A stretch of 54,956 nucleotides of DNA from an uncultured Candidatus Melainabacteria bacterium (GTDB lineage: Bacteria; Cyanobacteriota; Vampirovibrionia; Gastranaerophilales; Gastranaerophilaceae), in NCBI GenBank assembly GCA_950096985.1, contig CATNBA010000012.1, positions 1 to 54,956 of the forward strand, written 5' to 3'. Shown here one piece after another: positions 18,645-27,396 of the stretch (position 1 is its first letter; each line of letters begins with the position of its first letter). Both the position numbers and the translations under genes were made by a program. The notes beneath the pieces were generated by a model that made no database searches, was not told the DNA's origin, and saw only the letters and a list, made by a program, of their open reading frames with translations.

Positions 18645-19151
18645 ATGTTAGGCGGTGACTTTGATACACCAATTATGTATCAAGATTTAGGGAAATATAC
18701 TATGGGCGGAATTCCTCCTATGTATGGCGGAATGTACGGTAGTGGTATAATTGGAAACTCGTCTTATCTTGGCGGGGTTCAAATTCGTCCTCAACTTGAC
18801 CATGATAAAATTCAATTAATAAATAAGAAAAATAAAGAAGGCAAAGATACGTTTAAGAAAGCTATGCTTGGTATAGGTGCCTGTCTGTTGTTAGGTTTTA
18901 TTCCTGTTATCAAAAAAGGAATTAAAAAATCCGGCGGTGTGGGTAAATATATAAAGGATGTATGGACATCTTTAACAGCTCCAAAAGCTAAAAAACCGTC
19001 ATTATGGCAGAGAATTAAAAATAAATTTAAGAAAAATTCGTCAAATAATACATCATCTCCATCAACGAGTTCAAGAATTAAAGGTTGGTGTAGTGCAAAA
19101 TGGAATTCATTTAAAAAGTTATTTAAGAAGAAAACTCCGGTTCAGCCTTAA
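18645..19151 (+). CDS. hypothetical protein with Gly/Met/Tyr-rich start and basic tail
   Basis: 168 residues, not recognised. The N-terminal 45 residues are rich in Gly, Met, Tyr and Ile (YGGMYGSGIIGNSSYLGG). One hydrophobic segment lies at about 73-90 (KAMLGIGACLLLGFIPVI), followed by a strongly basic, Ser/Asn-rich tail with repeated Trp-Lys motifs (SLWQRIKNKFKK, KWNSFKKLFKKK). GGAG precedes the ATG. The layout suggests a membrane-anchored protein whose basic amphipathic tail binds nucleic acid or membrane; this is inference. Confidence 0.6.
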   Translation: MLGGDFDTPIMYQDLGKYTMGGIPPMYGGMYGSGIIGNSSYLGGVQIRPQLDHDKIQLINKKNKEGKDTFKKAMLGIGACLLLGFIPVIKKGIKKSGGVGKYIKDVWTSLTAPKAKKPSLWQRIKNKFKKNSSNNTSSPSTSSRIKGWCSAKWNSFKKLFKKKTPVQP

Positions 19152-20318: not shown

Positions 20319-22028
20319 CTATAAATTTTGTTTATATATTCGTTTTGAATGATTTTCTATGTTAGGAGTGTCGATCTCAAAAACATGAATTCTTGCAGGA
20401 GCTAAGTTTACAGCAAGTTGATTGTCTTTTGCCTGCAGTGCACTTTGCTGTCCGTAAGACGGCAGTAAATTTTTAAGCTCCTGAGAAGATTTTAATGTCG
20501 GAACATTTATCGTACAAGAAACTTTTCTGTTTACATTTTTGTTTGCGACGACAAGAAGTGTTTTTCCGTTTAAATGTCTCGCATAAGCGATAATCTGGTC
20601 ATTTTTATCACCTTTTTTGTCAAGCGGTATAAATGTTCCTTTATTTACCACGTCAGCAAATTTGTCTTTAAGTTCAAATGCGCTTGTCATGAATTTCCCG
20701 ATTTCAGGCTCACTGCCTCCAGGTTTTCTTGAAAGATTAAAAATATCCAGTCTGCCTCTGTGAACTGTCATTTGATGATTATCTGTTGCAGTTACCGGAT
20801 TGTATTTATCCTCATACGGATAAGAATATTTATCCCCTGATTGATAACCGTCAACGATATAAGGACTAAGCATAGGCAATGTTGCCTGTAGACCCATTGT
20901 AAGATTACAATAATCTGCTCCGCCATGATACATTGGTGAAATGTCATCATGTGTTGCAAAAGAACCAATCAAGGCTTTGCCTTTTGGCAATTTATAAGAC
21001 ATATCCAACTGTTCTTTTATGTAATCAATAAATGTCGTTGCATCAGGCCATTCATGGAAAATATGATATTGTCCGTAAATTGTATCAAAACCCGCTCTTA
21101 AAGAGTCTTCAGGTCTGTCATAAGGCATATTTGCCTGAGGTGAAGCATCTTCATAAGTATATGTTTCACCAAGCCATCCGAATTCAGGGTCGCGCATTCT
21201 TGAATACGGGATGATTATATCCCAGAATTCAACAGGTTTAGCTCTTGCAACGTCTGCTCTTATACCGTCAATTCCTAAATCAATACACATATCAACGTAT
21301 TCTTTATGAAGTTCCAGAAGTTTTGGGTTTAAAGTTCTTTTGCCTTCATCTTGCCAAGGTTGAAACATTCTTATGTCATTCCAACCTTGTGGTGTTTTTG
21401 CTAAACCGTCACGTTCCATTGCCATTAATTCAGGATATTCAAGGAACATATCGTATGATGCACAGCTGGGCATATCAAGCATTACTTTAATTCCGCGCTT
21501 ATGGCATTCGTCAATAAAAGCTTTAAACTGTTCTTTATCACTTCGCGGATCTTTAGGGTCAATAAGTTTTGGGTCTATACCGAGCATATCTTTTGGTGAA
21601 TATAAAGACCCCGCAGTGCCCATTGCTTTCATTTTACCAGGTTCGTGGACAGGCAGAATATGAAGTGTATTAAACCCTTGAGCTTTAACTTCATCAAGTC
21701 TTTCAATTGCGTTTAAAAAAGTTCCATGCTGCTCATTTCCGTCAATAAATTCGTTGCCGTTTAAATCTTTTGCATTAAATGTTCTTGGAATAATTGCAAG
21801 AATTTTAGCCTGATTTGTTCTAAACAATGTTTTTAAATCATTATGGTAATTAACAGGCCAGCTGTGTTCAGATTTTTTTACAGCAGGTGTATTAATCATT
21901 GCAATATTGTTTAAATAAGCGTTCAGTAACCCCGAATTTGTTTGTGCCGGCTGTTCTGTTTGAGTTTGTACAGCTTGCTTGAATGTCGGTTGAGCTTTAA
22001 TGTTGAGTATATTTATTGCATTAATCAT
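20319..22028 (-). CDS. GH13-family alpha-glucan-active enzyme
   Basis: 569 residues and cytoplasmic (no signal peptide). The catalytic (beta/alpha)8 barrel shows region II GIDGIRADVARA with nucleophile Asp259, region III GWLGETYTYED with acid/base Glu288, and region IV FATHDD with Asp361. Region I is unusual: DMPSCASYD replaces DxVxNH. A C-terminal beta domain spans about 475-555. The substrate cannot be fixed (glucanotransferase, maltosyltransferase or amylase). Its ATG overlaps the stop of the preceding orphan by 8 bp, so it is the third gene of a coupled operon with two membrane-associated proteins. Confidence 0.85.
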   Translation of the reverse strand: MINAINILNIKAQPTFKQAVQTQTEQPAQTNSGLLNAYLNNIAMINTPAVKKSEHSWPVNYHNDLKTLFRTNQAKILAIIPRTFNAKDLNGNEFIDGNEQHGTFLNAIERLDEVKAQGFNTLHILPVHEPGKMKAMGTAGSLYSPKDMLGIDPKLIDPKDPRSDKEQFKAFIDECHKRGIKVMLDMPSCASYDMFLEYPELMAMERDGLAKTPQGWNDIRMFQPWQDEGKRTLNPKLLELHKEYVDMCIDLGIDGIRADVARAKPVEFWDIIIPYSRMRDPEFGWLGETYTYEDASPQANMPYDRPEDSLRAGFDTIYGQYHIFHEWPDATTFIDYIKEQLDMSYKLPKGKALIGSFATHDDISPMYHGGADYCNLTMGLQATLPMLSPYIVDGYQSGDKYSYPYEDKYNPVTATDNHQMTVHRGRLDIFNLSRKPGGSEPEIGKFMTSAFELKDKFADVVNKGTFIPLDKKGDKNDQIIAYARHLNGKTLLVVANKNVNRKVSCTINVPTLKSSQELKNLLPSYGQQSALQAKDNQLAVNLAPARIHVFEIDTPNIENHSKRIYKQNL

Positions 22029-24558
22029 TTTTTACCTGCCTTGGGCTTTTAAGCTTACCTAAGAAGAACTGTATAAGTACTGTAGTTCCTAATAATCCAG
22101 CTCCGAAGCCACCGAACATTTTAAGCCATTTTTTTGTATTAAATGCCTGTTGACCTGCTTTAAAGAAAAATTCGTCAGGAGCTATGCCTGTTAATAAGAA
22201 TTTTATATCCGAGCCTGTGTGATTTTTGCCGCTTACTAAATGGCGTGGTTTTGCGAAGTATTTTTCCCCTCCCAGTTTTTCCATAATAAGCTGTCTATAT
22301 CTTGTAAATTCATCTCTGATAGAAACATTTTTTTCAAGTATAGCTTTTGTGTCCGGATGAATTTCATCACCGAACAGGAATTTCATTGCATTTTGATAAA
22401 AATACTTATCTGTTGAAATATCAGTTGTCCCGGCTGCGTTTCCTAAGTATTTATTCTTAATTTTGCCGCCTTCAACTTCTAACGGACTTGTGTCTAATGC
22501 AGGATTTGGATTTCTAAGCATCCAGAATTTTGTAGCATGGTCTGATGAGTGACCTTCAAGCATAATTATTTTACAAAGTTCAATTAGTTCTTCTTTAACT
22601 TCACGAACTAATGTCATTTCGGGATTAATATGAGTTAATGCATTAGGGTTTGTAGCTGCACGTCTATATAAATCAAGAGTGTTAATAAGTCTGTTAAATG
22701 AGCTTTTAACACCAAGCAATCTGTCTTCTACATAAGCTTTTTGAATACGTATATAACTACCATTGTCGTTATTGCCGTTTCCTATAATTGAGTTTGCTGT
22801 TCTTGTAAAACCTTGTTCTCTAAGCTTTTTCGCAAATTCTTCGAATATAGTGTGAACTTTTTCTTCATATATTGTCTGAGATCCGGTATCTGTAAGCATG
22901 TGTGATGCTATATCACTGGGTTTAATTTGAGTGTTTAATGATGCAACTTTTTCAACAAGAATGCCCATAACTCTATCATATGCTGATTTATCAGAAACAA
23001 TTTGTTCCAGTTTACCTCTTAACAGTTCGCCCATAAGTGTTCTGTTGAATCTTACTTTTTCTATTTCTTTAGAAGTAAATCCAATAGATTTCATAAGTTC
23101 TTGTGAAACATTGTTCCAATAATTTGCAATAACAGTTTCCGGCGCAGAACCTACTTTTGTCAGTGCATATTCATCAAGCGAAAGATTTTTAGCTCTGAAA
23201 TTATCAAGAATTCCTGCAAGTTTTTTTAATTTTCCCTGCGCAGTTTCGTCTAATACAGATGCTCGAACTTCTTTAAGAGATTTAGCTATAGGATGTTCTT
23301 CAGTTTTATTTGCACTGATAAGCTCTCTGATATAACCTAAATCTTCAGCATCATCAGGATGAGCTTGATTGAAAATATGTGCTCTGTTAATAATTTCGTC
23401 AACTATTGTGTTACTTATTTCTGTATGGTCAACTTTAAGGTAATTATTTCCACTGAAACCTCTATCTTTCATAAACTGTATCATTGCAGTTTCATCAGGA
23501 ATTACTGCTTGTAAAAATTCTTTTGAAAACCCTTTATCAGCAAACTGTTTGTGTAAATTTGCAGTAATATTTTTTGCAGTGGTATCGTTTATAGAATATC
23601 TGTCGTTAGAAAGCAGTCCCAGCAAGTCTTTTTTAAAATTTTCCGATGTTACAGGGTCAATATCGGTTGTGAAAACGTCTGTAATTTTATCAATTAATTC
23701 TTGATTTATAGGCTGATTACTATGTTTTTTTATAATTTCGGTTAACGATTTTTCAACAGGGTTAGTTTGATATTTTTTAGAATAATTTTCAAGGTTTGTT
23801 AAAATTTGGTCTGCTTTTTTATTTTTTTGATTGTTTTGATATTTCAAAAGATATGGTTCTGCCTGATTACAGATTAACGCACTCATAATTGGAGTTGCAA
23901 ACCCTGCAGTTAGCATCCATAATGTGTTATTTTGCACAGCAAGTTTTCTCATTTTTTCCTGAATGAAATCCCTTCTGTTTGGGATATCTTTAGGAACACC
24001 CATTCTATCCCCGATTTTTTGTATTTCTTCGTCTTTATATAAATCCCAAGGAATAAATTGCGGGTCTTGATAGAAAGGTTTTCTTCTTCCAAAACTGTCT
24101 TGATATTGCTTTTGGACATCTACTCCATGTAATAAGTAAGCAGGGAGCTGTATTGCAATTTTAGGCCATATTGCCATTGAGGCAAAAAATGAGCCAAGAC
24201 CGACAAATTCCATACCTTTGGTTAAAGGTGTAGTCTTTTTAGTAAATAAGTAGCTTGCGATTGCAAGACCGCCTGTCATCATTCCTAAATCATTAAGTTT
24301 ACCGAGTTCATGGTCATTAGCTTTTCCTTTTGCCGCATGACTCAAGGCCTTCATGCTGTATTTAACATCTCTGAATGTATCAATAGGAGCATAAAGAATA
24401 TTCCCGCTAAGCAGTTTACCTTTACCTTTTAAAGGTTTAATAAAGGTCCTGTTATTTAATTCATTTTGAATATTAAAATCAGGTTTAGGTTTTACAGATG
24501 TTTGTTGTTGTGTAATCTGCGATTTAGATATGTAGTTGTTAATTAAATTTGAACTCAT
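22021..24558 (-). CDS. large membrane-associated orphan protein (WDLY family, long form)
   Basis: 845 residues, no recognisable domain. Hydrophobic segments lie at about 92-140, 212-235 and 812-832. A long, mostly helical hydrophilic region (240-800) lies between them. IPWDLYKDEEIQKIGDRMGV (169-188) followed by a hydrophobic LWMLTAGFATP aligns with the neighbour at 24560. It starts 1 bp after that gene's stop and overlaps the GH13 gene by 8 bp. A scaffold or envelope complex is possible; nothing in the sequence proves it. Confidence 0.75.
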   Translation of the reverse strand: MSSNLINNYISKSQITQQQTSVKPKPDFNIQNELNNRTFIKPLKGKGKLLSGNILYAPIDTFRDVKYSMKALSHAAKGKANDHELGKLNDLGMMTGGLAIASYLFTKKTTPLTKGMEFVGLGSFFASMAIWPKIAIQLPAYLLHGVDVQKQYQDSFGRRKPFYQDPQFIPWDLYKDEEIQKIGDRMGVPKDIPNRRDFIQEKMRKLAVQNNTLWMLTAGFATPIMSALICNQAEPYLLKYQNNQKNKKADQILTNLENYSKKYQTNPVEKSLTEIIKKHSNQPINQELIDKITDVFTTDIDPVTSENFKKDLLGLLSNDRYSINDTTAKNITANLHKQFADKGFSKEFLQAVIPDETAMIQFMKDRGFSGNNYLKVDHTEISNTIVDEIINRAHIFNQAHPDDAEDLGYIRELISANKTEEHPIAKSLKEVRASVLDETAQGKLKKLAGILDNFRAKNLSLDEYALTKVGSAPETVIANYWNNVSQELMKSIGFTSKEIEKVRFNRTLMGELLRGKLEQIVSDKSAYDRVMGILVEKVASLNTQIKPSDIASHMLTDTGSQTIYEEKVHTIFEEFAKKLREQGFTRTANSIIGNGNNDNGSYIRIQKAYVEDRLLGVKSSFNRLINTLDLYRRAATNPNALTHINPEMTLVREVKEELIELCKIIMLEGHSSDHATKFWMLRNPNPALDTSPLEVEGGKIKNKYLGNAAGTTDISTDKYFYQNAMKFLFGDEIHPDTKAILEKNVSIRDEFTRYRQLIMEKLGGEKYFAKPRHLVSGKNHTGSDIKFLLTGIAPDEFFFKAGQQAFNTKKWLKMFGGFGAGLLGTTVLIQFFLGKLKSPRQVKND

Positions 24559-24559
24559 A

Positions 24560-25573
24560 TTAATCTACCACATACCTTTCATTTTTATTAATAACATTTT
24601 TAGTATTTGTTGATTTTGGCGATACTGCATTAATAACACCTGTAATTGTGCTTAAGGCTGCAGCTCCCGCAAGTGCCTTGCCTGTATGTTTTGTAATGCC
24701 TTTTCCTTCGCCTTTCCAAAACTCTTTTATACTTTCTATAAAGTTATGTCCAAAAGATTGCATACTCTTTTTAAATTCTTTACCTTTCCAGAATTTAAAG
24801 GTCATTACGTTAAAGAAATTTTCCCAGGGTTTTTGGAACGCAATACCAACACCTGTTGCAGCCCAAAGATATGAAGATATGTTTTTAGCTAAATTAGTTT
24901 TTATAACTATTTCTTTGATTCTTGGTTTTACTTCCTGATCAGAATCATTTAAGTTTTCTCCCATTCCTAATTTTTTGGCAATTTTATCATATCGGTAATT
25001 TCTTTTTTCGCCCTTTTCTTCATTTCCGTACAGTAAATCCCAACGGGGAAATTCAACACTTTCAAATACTTTGTGATGCTCTATGCTTGTAATATCAGTG
25101 TCATTAATATCATCCGGAAGTTCATAAATGACTTTCGCATAAGGTCTTTCGGTGTCAATTCCTGTCATCATTTTTACAGGTTTTGTTACGAGTGATTTAG
25201 ATGCGTTCTTTAATAATCCGTAGAACAAAACACCCAGAGCCATTTTTTTACCGATTGCAGATGCTTTTGTTTTTGCAAATGGTGCAAAATGTTTATTTGC
25301 AGAGTTAAATACCGACATCATGGTGATACTTCCAATTATATATGGAACTGTTCCCATTGTCAGAAATTCATAGAAATTAGCGTTTTTGCTGCCTTTAAAT
25401 CCTTTTGCGGGATATACTGTTAATGCGTTTGTGAGTTTATCTATACCGATTTTTGTGCGTGTTGCAAAGTTATTGTCCAGTAATGTGTCGTGGTTATATT
25501 CCAAAGATTTTTTGTTTTTATCCCCGGCAGAAAATTTTATTATATTATTATGATTATTTACCGCTAAAATCAT
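24560..25573 (-). CDS. membrane-associated orphan protein (WDLY family, short form)
   Basis: 337 residues from ATG 25573 (GGAG 5 nt upstream; ATG 25588 lacks one). Hydrophobic segments lie at about 68-90, 110-122, 232-246 and 310-325. It shares with the 845-residue neighbour, in the same order, a P-x5-G-[IV]-D-x4-Y segment, a WDL[LY] motif (178-183), an I-x-K-x-[LM]-G-M segment and a hydrophobic LW-x3-[AT]G stretch. The N-terminus MILAVNNHNNIIKFSAG has no signal peptide. No known family was recognised. Confidence 0.75.
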   Translation of the reverse strand: MILAVNNHNNIIKFSAGDKNKKSLEYNHDTLLDNNFATRTKIGIDKLTNALTVYPAKGFKGSKNANFYEFLTMGTVPYIIGSITMMSVFNSANKHFAPFAKTKASAIGKKMALGVLFYGLLKNASKSLVTKPVKMMTGIDTERPYAKVIYELPDDINDTDITSIEHHKVFESVEFPRWDLLYGNEEKGEKRNYRYDKIAKKLGMGENLNDSDQEVKPRIKEIVIKTNLAKNISSYLWAATGVGIAFQKPWENFFNVMTFKFWKGKEFKKSMQSFGHNFIESIKEFWKGEGKGITKHTGKALAGAAALSTITGVINAVSPKSTNTKNVINKNERYVVD

Positions 25574-25658
25574 TTTTACTCCACACACACATGAATTTCA
25601 GTATATTAAGACCTCTGAATATATTTTTTTGTTAGTCTGATACAGATTTTTACATTTA

Positions 25659-26501
25659 TTAACAAACACTAAAAAATACTGCTGTTGCAATTCCTGCAAT
25701 TATACAATAGTATCCGAATATCCCCAGTGAAAATTTAGAAATAAATTTCATGAAATATTTAATACAAATGTATCCGGTTAAAGCAGAAACTATTGTTCCT
25801 GCTATTATTGCGGTCCAATTATACATAGCGGCTTCATGAACATCAATCTCTATAAGAGGATATACCATTGATGCCCCTAAAATAATTGGGATACTCAGTA
25901 AGAAAGAATATCTTGCCGATGTTACTCTATCCAAACCCAAAAACAGACCCGTTGCAATTGTCCATCCGGAGCGTGAAAAGCCTGGTAAGGATGCAAGCCC
26001 TTGGGCTATACCAATAAAGACTGAAGTTTTTAGGTCAACTTCACATTTTTTTTCTTCGATTTTTTTTGATTTATATTCACTGTATAAAAGGGCAAAGCCT
26101 GTTATAAACAGTAAAATTCCAACGATAGCAGGTGAGTACACAAGTTTCTCTGCAACATTGTTTATAGGGAGAGCCATTGCAACAGTTATAATTGTACCGG
26201 CAGCTATGAATAAACCTAATTTAGCCTCATGGTTTGACCAGTCTTTAGACTTAAAAGCATGATACATTGCTTTTAAAATATTCATCACATCTTTACGGAA
26301 AAAAATTAAAACAGCAATTAAAGTTCCAAGATGCACCATAATGTCAAAAAATACTTCTTCATTAGATGTTTGAACTATCTCGATTCCTTTAAAAACTTTA
26401 TAAAAATTTGATGTAAACACAAGGTGAGCAGAACTTGATATAGGCAAGAACTCGCTCAATCCCTGAACTATTCCCATTAATATTGCTTGTATAAGGTTCA
26501 T
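25659..26501 (-). CDS. uppP: undecaprenyl-diphosphate phosphatase (BacA type)
   Basis: Recycles undecaprenyl pyrophosphate to the monophosphate carrier for wall and polysaccharide synthesis. 280 residues with about eight membrane helices. Catalytic motifs EFLPISSSAH (17-26) and GFSRSGWTIATG are intact (the usual G-x-SRSG). It lies 55 bp after queD and is probably in the kdsC-queD-uppP operon. Confidence 0.97.
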   Translation of the reverse strand: MNLIQAILMGIVQGLSEFLPISSSAHLVFTSNFYKVFKGIEIVQTSNEEVFFDIMVHLGTLIAVLIFFRKDVMNILKAMYHAFKSKDWSNHEAKLGLFIAAGTIITVAMALPINNVAEKLVYSPAIVGILLFITGFALLYSEYKSKKIEEKKCEVDLKTSVFIGIAQGLASLPGFSRSGWTIATGLFLGLDRVTSARYSFLLSIPIILGASMVYPLIEIDVHEAAMYNWTAIIAGTIVSALTGYICIKYFMKFISKFSLGIFGYYCIIAGIATAVFFSVC

Positions 26502-26556
26502 TTTTCTCTTTCCAAAACTTTTAAAACTTGTTCAAAACCTGATTAGCGGAGAGCGG

Positions 26557-26919
26557 CTATTCTTCTTCATAATAGCTGCAACAAGATGTTTGAGTTTCCC
26601 AAACCTTTATTTTGCTCAGCTGAACAATTCTTTCTTTAAGTTTAGTGTAAATGAAATATGCAATCATTTCGCTTGACGGGCTTTCACCTTTAAATTCAGG
26701 CAGTTCATTGATATCTTTATGGTCAAGCATATCCAAAACCGTATTCAGTTCTTTTTTTAATACTTTATAATCAATTAAGATATTGCTTTTGTCTAACGTA
26801 TCCCCTTTTACATAAGCCTCTACCATCCAGTTATGTCCATGCTGGTTCTCACATTCCCCATCATAGTTCAAAAGGTGATGCGCAGCAGCAAAAAAAGCCT
26901 GTGTTTTAATTTCAAACAT
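26557..26919 (-). CDS. queD: 6-carboxytetrahydropterin synthase (QueD/PTPS family)
   Basis: Converts 7,8-dihydroneopterin triphosphate to 6-carboxy-5,6,7,8-tetrahydropterin for queuosine/7-deazaguanine synthesis. 120 residues. The zinc-binding His are in FAAAHHL and NQHGHNW. The catalytic Cys precedes the latter as C-x3-HGH, and the C-terminal Glu-containing WETQTS is present. GGGGAG is upstream. Other queuosine genes are not in the window. The gap to kdsC is 3 bp. Confidence 0.94.
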   Translation of the reverse strand: MFEIKTQAFFAAAHHLLNYDGECENQHGHNWMVEAYVKGDTLDKSNILIDYKVLKKELNTVLDMLDHKDINELPEFKGESPSSEMIAYFIYTKLKERIVQLSKIKVWETQTSCCSYYEEE

Positions 26920-26922
26920 TAT

Positions 26923-27396
26923 TTATTCTCCCCTCAGTATATAATCACAAAATTCTCTGACAGCACCTCGTCCGCCATTTTTTGACGAAATAAAATTAGC
27001 AATGGCTTTAACTTCATCAACCGCATCAGCCGGACAGCCTTTCAATTTTACTTTTTCCAAAACGCATATATCCGGCAGGTCATCTCCCATATATGCGACA
27101 TTTTCAAAAGTTAAATTATATTTTTTCAATATTTCTTCAAGTGTTGCAATCTTATTTTTTGACCCCTGATGAAGTTCTTTAATATTTAGGTTTTTAGCTC
27201 TGTGTTCAACAGTTCCGTTATTGCGTGCGGTAATTATTGCAGTAATTACACCGGCATTATTAAGGTTTACAATACCCTGACCGTCTTTGGCATTAAAAGT
27301 TTTATATTCATGTCCAAATTCGTCAAAAGTAAGACTTCCGTCAGTTAATACTCCATCAACATCAAATGCAGCAAGTTTAATATCTGAATTTTTCAT
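26923..27396 (-). CDS. kdsC: 3-deoxy-D-manno-octulosonate 8-phosphate phosphatase (KdsC type)
   Basis: Releases Kdo from Kdo-8-phosphate for lipopolysaccharide inner core. 157 residues, a cap-less HAD phosphatase. Motif I is DVDGVLTDG (Asp12 and Asp14), motif II ITARN, and motif III YMGDDLPD. The KNGGRGAVRE tail is typical of KdsC. It implies an outer membrane with Kdo. -10 GATAAT lies exactly 6 nt before the ATG, so the mRNA may be leaderless. Confidence 0.92.
   Translation of the reverse strand: MKNSDIKLAAFDVDGVLTDGSLTFDEFGHEYKTFNAKDGQGIVNLNNAGVITAIITARNNGTVEHRAKNLNIKELHQGSKNKIATLEEILKKYNLTFENVAYMGDDLPDICVLEKVKLKGCPADAVDEVKAIANFISSKNGGRGAVREFCDYILRGE

Follow-up and report, generated by a model that had tools for sequence, protein, structure and literature searches.

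The window, a stretch of 54,956 nucleotides from an uncultured Candidatus Melainabacteria bacterium, carries three consecutive genes on the minus strand, here called A, B, and C from upstream to downstream. The genes and the features discussed below are as follows.

24560 to 25573, minus strand: gene A, an open reading frame of 337 aa with four weakly hydrophobic segments.
24845 to 25501, minus strand: the part of A homologous to B (residues 30–248 in the 342-aa numbering; hhalign E = 3.1e-14), with segments 1–3 and the GID/WDL/KIAKKLG loop.
22021 to 24558, minus strand: gene B, an open reading frame of 845 aa, paralogous to A and extended by a large helical insert.
23872 to 24432, minus strand: the part of B homologous to A (residues 43–229; hhalign with controls).
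22117 to 23868, minus strand: the insert of B (residues 231–814), variable in length between genomes and without a match in A.
22060 to 22116, minus strand: the last hydrophobic segment of B (residues 815–833), the strongest of the four, which the GH13 domain follows in fused proteins.
20319 to 22028, minus strand: gene C, an open reading frame for a 569-aa GH13 enzyme without a signal peptide.
21456 to 21476, minus strand: region I of C, DMPSCAS (residues 185–191), with D185 and P187 in 80/80 and C189 in 76/80 family members.
21252 to 21254, minus strand: the predicted nucleophile of C, D259, in 80/80 members.

The genes abut or overlap as had been noted before: A and B are separated by 1 bp, B and C overlap by 8 bp, and the three form a translationally coupled operon. 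For A, a GTG at 25588 is an alternative start giving 342 aa. The ATG at 25573 has a GGAG ribosome site in front of it, at the place where many A orthologues open with a conserved CGV(K/E)M, and several orthologues begin at the equivalent position; thus, the 337-aa start assigned earlier is probably correct. The prediction of one operon is also borne out in other genomes: of 136 loci, 122 have the genes in the order A/B/C, and most of the exceptions are contig ends; the modal gaps across these loci are +1 between A and B and −4 between B and C. In G053, the order is C-A-B.

The proposed paralogy of A and B is upheld by profile-profile comparison. Profiles built from 55 A and 51 B sequences are aligned by hhalign over 183 columns at E = 3.1e-14, whereas the reversed B profile gives E = 0.11 and block-shuffled profiles give 0.026–0.53. 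Earlier and smaller alignments of A and B gave E = 1.3e-10, and single orthologues match each other by blastp, down to 1.7e-8. Judged from these alignments, A and B are true paralogues whose similarity goes well beyond chance. Four hydrophobic segments occur in the same order in both proteins and are conserved across the family: by family-averaged hydropathy, they lie at residues 76–94, 116–134, 233–251, and 305–323 of A and at 88–106, 118–136, 212–230, and 815–833 of B. The GID...Y, WDL, and KIA/KIG motifs sit between segments 2 and 3, and the fourth segment alone shows weak homology between A and B (E = 0.0013). Four shared motifs had been listed in the original prediction, and P-x5-G-[IV]-D-x4-Y, WDL[LY], and the LW stretch among them are present as described, while I-x-K-x-[LM]-G-M is inexact (KIGDRMGV in B and KIAKKLGM in A). 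Because segments and motifs are shared in the same order, B looks like A with a helical insert of about 580 residues placed between segments 3 and 4. The insert gives no match to the A profile (hhalign E = 0.26), and in profile searches it scores weakly with helical bundles only. No family was found for A or B in Pfam, NCBIfam, PADLOC, or PDB, all matches being single-member or sub-threshold, in agreement with their earlier placement outside known families. The segments are of moderate hydropathy (family average 1.0–1.7 on the Kyte-Doolittle scale) and their flanking charges are ambiguous as to topology; with four such segments each, A and B may be inserted into the membrane.

C had been assigned to GH13, and the assignment is confirmed by its match to the alpha-amylase catalytic domain PF00128 (26.4 bits; curated cut-off, 22) and by a predicted catalytic triad conserved in two orders, namely D259 (80/80), the acid E288 (80/80), and D361 (79/80). 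An altered region I (DMPSCASYD) had also been reported. D-M-P-S-C-A-S is indeed there, and the canonical DxxxNH is not found in the C family: the form across its 80 members is D-[LMVI]-P-S-C-A-S, with S188, C189, A190, and S191 nearly invariant. This alteration is clade-wide and resembles the region I of GlgE and maltosyltransferase enzymes, and the branch of the nearest solved relatives of C also departs from DxxxNH there; as both GlgE and the Thermotoga enzyme lack DxxxNH too, its absence does not exclude C from GH13. Nor is it a sign of a dead enzyme, a reading ruled out by the conserved triad; as 79 of 80 copies have the complete triad, C is probably active.

The solved proteins closest to C are the Thermotoga maltosyltransferase 1gju, 4gkl, 3dhu, and GlgE, a set that includes two uncharacterised alpha-amylases. 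The maltosyltransferase of Thermotoga maritima (1gju/1gjw) is the best single-sequence match (E = 3.1e-16), and its region I, DFIPRTAARD, likewise departs from DxxxNH; it differs from C in being soluble with no known membrane partner. C also has a shorter second half, and the relationship between the two is only distant. GlgE (GH13_3), a maltose-1-phosphate maltosyltransferase, is matched by a profile alignment spanning the catalytic domain and the C-terminal one (E about 1e-20), and C may share with it a retaining GH13 chemistry on alpha-1,4-glucan. The GLGE_C domain match in C falls below the Pfam cut-off, no GlgE equivalog is matched in NCBIfam, and matches to other equivalogs are far under their cut-offs. 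Since the GH13 definition applies and no GlgE equivalog is matched, C is filed as GH13, not as GlgE. Furthermore, GlgE is reported to be in an operon with GlgB (PMC11046441), whereas the partners of C are A, B, and the second GH13 protein c2 described below. From its GH13 relatives, the substrate of C would be an alpha-glucan, and its activity may be of a maltosyl-transferase type rather than purely hydrolytic. Because it has no signal peptide, C would be cytoplasmic; a paralogue elsewhere in the genome (L110), about 40% identical, has one.

Co-inheritance of A and B with the GH13 gene, which had also been predicted, is seen in phylogenetic co-occurrence, and the refutation proposed for it, genes inherited separately, failed. 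Of 58 relatives, 50 give matches to both A and B and the other eight to neither; C is present in those 50 and in G050 and absent from the remaining seven. The B gene of G050 is a fragment at a contig end; counting it, A, B, and C are jointly present in 51/58 and jointly absent in 7/58. A sample of the class comprised 382 genomes, and B is found in 290 of them. Within the window's own family, seven genomes without B are also without C, and five of these lack c2 as well, while G286 and G329 keep it. The genomes surveyed include MAGs, whose incompleteness bears on absences, and some of the B and C absences in these seven may be assembly gaps; G342 and G393, of the same genus and 99% complete, are without B, C, and c2.

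Gene fusion occurs as well. In G058, G068, and G079, which represent three genera from another order in the class, B and C are a single frame of 986–1082 residues, in which the GH13 part begins right behind the final hydrophobic segment of B. Based on operon coupling, fusion, and joint loss, C would work bound to B, and with A. Such physical joining of a GH13 domain to a membrane-type protein, together with the altered region I, would also suit a mainly structural role of C as a partner of A and B, with catalysis secondary. The precedents are the GH13-like heavy chains rBAT and 4F2hc of animal amino-acid transporters, in which a GH13-fold domain is tied to a multi-pass membrane protein. However, these heavy chains sit outside the cell and C has no signal peptide, no sequence relation of A or B to any transporter was found, and a triad kept in 79/80 members over two orders is not expected of a pure scaffold. 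We regard this role as very improbable.

The three-gene extent originally assigned to the system is right for A, B, and C, but missed the B-C fusions and a fourth component, c2. This giant GH13 protein is about 1370 aa long in the window's genome, where, as elsewhere in the genus, it is unlinked; its location is G000:C16 (L198 4681-8796). Nine distant genomes within the order carry a c2 of 1100–1340 aa beside A-B-C, in most cases immediately following C. Seven loci from the other order have it beside the cluster on the opposite strand, so that c2 adjoins the cluster in 16 distant loci altogether. The seven relatives without A-B-C show no c2 or only weak matches in its place; in G053, A-B-C is present and a clear c2 is not. 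The protein c2 is the fourth partner of A-B-C, present or absent together with it in nearly every case. Its triad (D771, E819, and D922 in the numbering of the sequence that heads alignment A3) does not vary among nine aligned sequences, and c2 has no signal peptide. The closest solved relatives are neopullulanase and cyclomaltodextrinase GH13 enzymes (2z1k, 1sma, and 1j0h; E = 8e-30), from which c2 differs by more than twice the length, inserts within the catalytic domain, and an N-terminal F-x-G invariant in the nine sequences, which cover two orders.

A polar N-terminal stretch ending in (S/N/V)F-x-G is also found on unrelated proteins of the lineage, including adenylate kinase as well as c2. 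Tagged proteins are encoded at L216:18885-19655, L216:8759-12180, L217:13314-16526, L221:12345-14333, L226:5515-6801, and L198:4681-8796, and the F-x-G peptide is about twofold enriched at N-termini relative to internal positions. A docking tag read by A and B was considered for this peptide and dropped, because the tags also occur in genomes without A and B. L216:8759-12180 and L217:13314-16526 each encode a tandem, mutually homologous pair of hydrophobic, F-x-G-tagged proteins of 520–571 aa (hhalign E = 4.5e-26) with no credible Pfam family; their membership in the A/B family was rejected (hhalign E 0.04–0.45).

The best 80 loci of a public genome scan all come from MAGs labelled Gastranaerophilales, Melainabacteria, Scatousia, or (uncultured) bacterium. 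In 386 genomes of the phylum, only two weak matches fell outside the class (E 3e-4 and 3.5e-6), possibly chance matches to the helical insert. The best reading is that the system is confined to one bacterial class, the non-photosynthetic relatives of cyanobacteria. No description of it was found in the open-access literature. Earlier genome papers (PMC3787301, PMC4040986) predict fermentation of starch and glycogen for the lineage, in passages that do not describe the A-B-C system.

What, then, would the four proteins do? Family searches, on which the gene inventories rest, found one glycogen-synthase-like and one phosphorylase-like gene in the window's genome, and by Pfam search only three GH13 genes, namely C, c2, and the secreted paralogue (L110). 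Together with the gene linkage, the missing signal peptide of C, and the GH13 relatives, this inventory favors a complex that remodels the cell's own glucan. In the model to which we incline with modest confidence, A and B would form a hetero-oligomeric membrane scaffold, which would tether the active enzyme C to the cytoplasmic side of the cell membrane, and C together with c2 would remodel the cell's own alpha-1,4-glucan; a physical complex of all four would be implied by this arrangement. The membrane-bound glucan complex of the original prediction is therefore plausible and now better founded. Its link to glycogen itself is loose, because genomes without the system retain genes resembling glycogen synthase and phosphorylase, and in G058 (f9) the system is present with no glycogen synthase match.

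Alternatively, C and c2 could degrade imported oligosaccharides beside an importer formed by A and B, which would make the system a membrane station for external maltodextrins. The kinship of c2 with neopullulanase and cyclomaltodextrinase enzymes, the signal peptide of L110, and the fermentation predicted for the lineage fit this idea, but A and B match no transporter family, and genomes without A, B, C, and c2 still hold the secreted-type GH13 paralogue. Outside digestion thus appears independent of the system, and we consider the import function improbable. In G342, one of the genomes without the four genes, the secreted paralogue (L140; G342:C18:57844-59298) carries Ser where the nucleophile would stand (GIRASV, not GIRADV) and is probably inactive for this reason.

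Genes upstream of A bring the cell envelope into consideration. At 25659–27396 of the window, genes resembling uppP, queD, and kdsC in sequence lie directly upstream on the same strand, and a uppP-type gene, by resemblance for undecaprenyl-diphosphate phosphatase, occupies the directly upstream, same-strand position in 76 loci. This linkage was observed in the window's own family and in none of the other families examined; it hints at an envelope role. A and B might then be a transporter or flippase for glucan or lipid-linked glucan that C and c2 tailor for the envelope. The uppP-type gene, the kdsC-like gene further upstream, the large B domain between segments 3 and 4, which may face outward, and the partial export of GlgE-made glucan to the mycobacterial capsule (PMC11046441) are consistent with such a function. 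It is nevertheless unlikely, given the restriction of the uppP linkage to one family and the lack of an ABC, Wzx, or known flippase signature or any Pfam match in A and B. A bolder reading, which we put forward as a tentative and rather doubtful proposal, is that A and B are a new, class-wide membrane machine through which two dedicated GH13 enzymes would remodel alpha-glucan in a way coupled to glucan assembly or export at the membrane, organised unlike GlgC/GlgA, GlgE, and secreted-amylase systems.

In bacteria, enzymes of alpha-glucan metabolism are usually either soluble or secreted. The present system is one in which an entire class, living in the gut and in the environment, ties a GH13 enzyme to an unclassified paralogous pair of membrane-type proteins and to a large second GH13, the tie of C to A and B resting on operon, joint loss, and gene fusion. 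This offers a function hypothesis for two unclassified protein families found in nearly every sampled genome of a single gut lineage. For this group, of which very few members are in culture, it points to a carbohydrate store organised at the membrane or to a glucan of the envelope.

A defence system was also considered for the locus and dismissed, PADLOC having given only a weak match to a GlgB-type model. Two further neighbors of the cluster were observed. A 168-aa protein at 18645–19151 of the window, Gly/Tyr-rich and then Lys-rich, belongs to no Pfam or NCBIfam family. In G039, the stretch directly downstream of C (L097:10564-14483) encodes two proteins in tandem, each of about 628 aa and weakly matching EF-hands.
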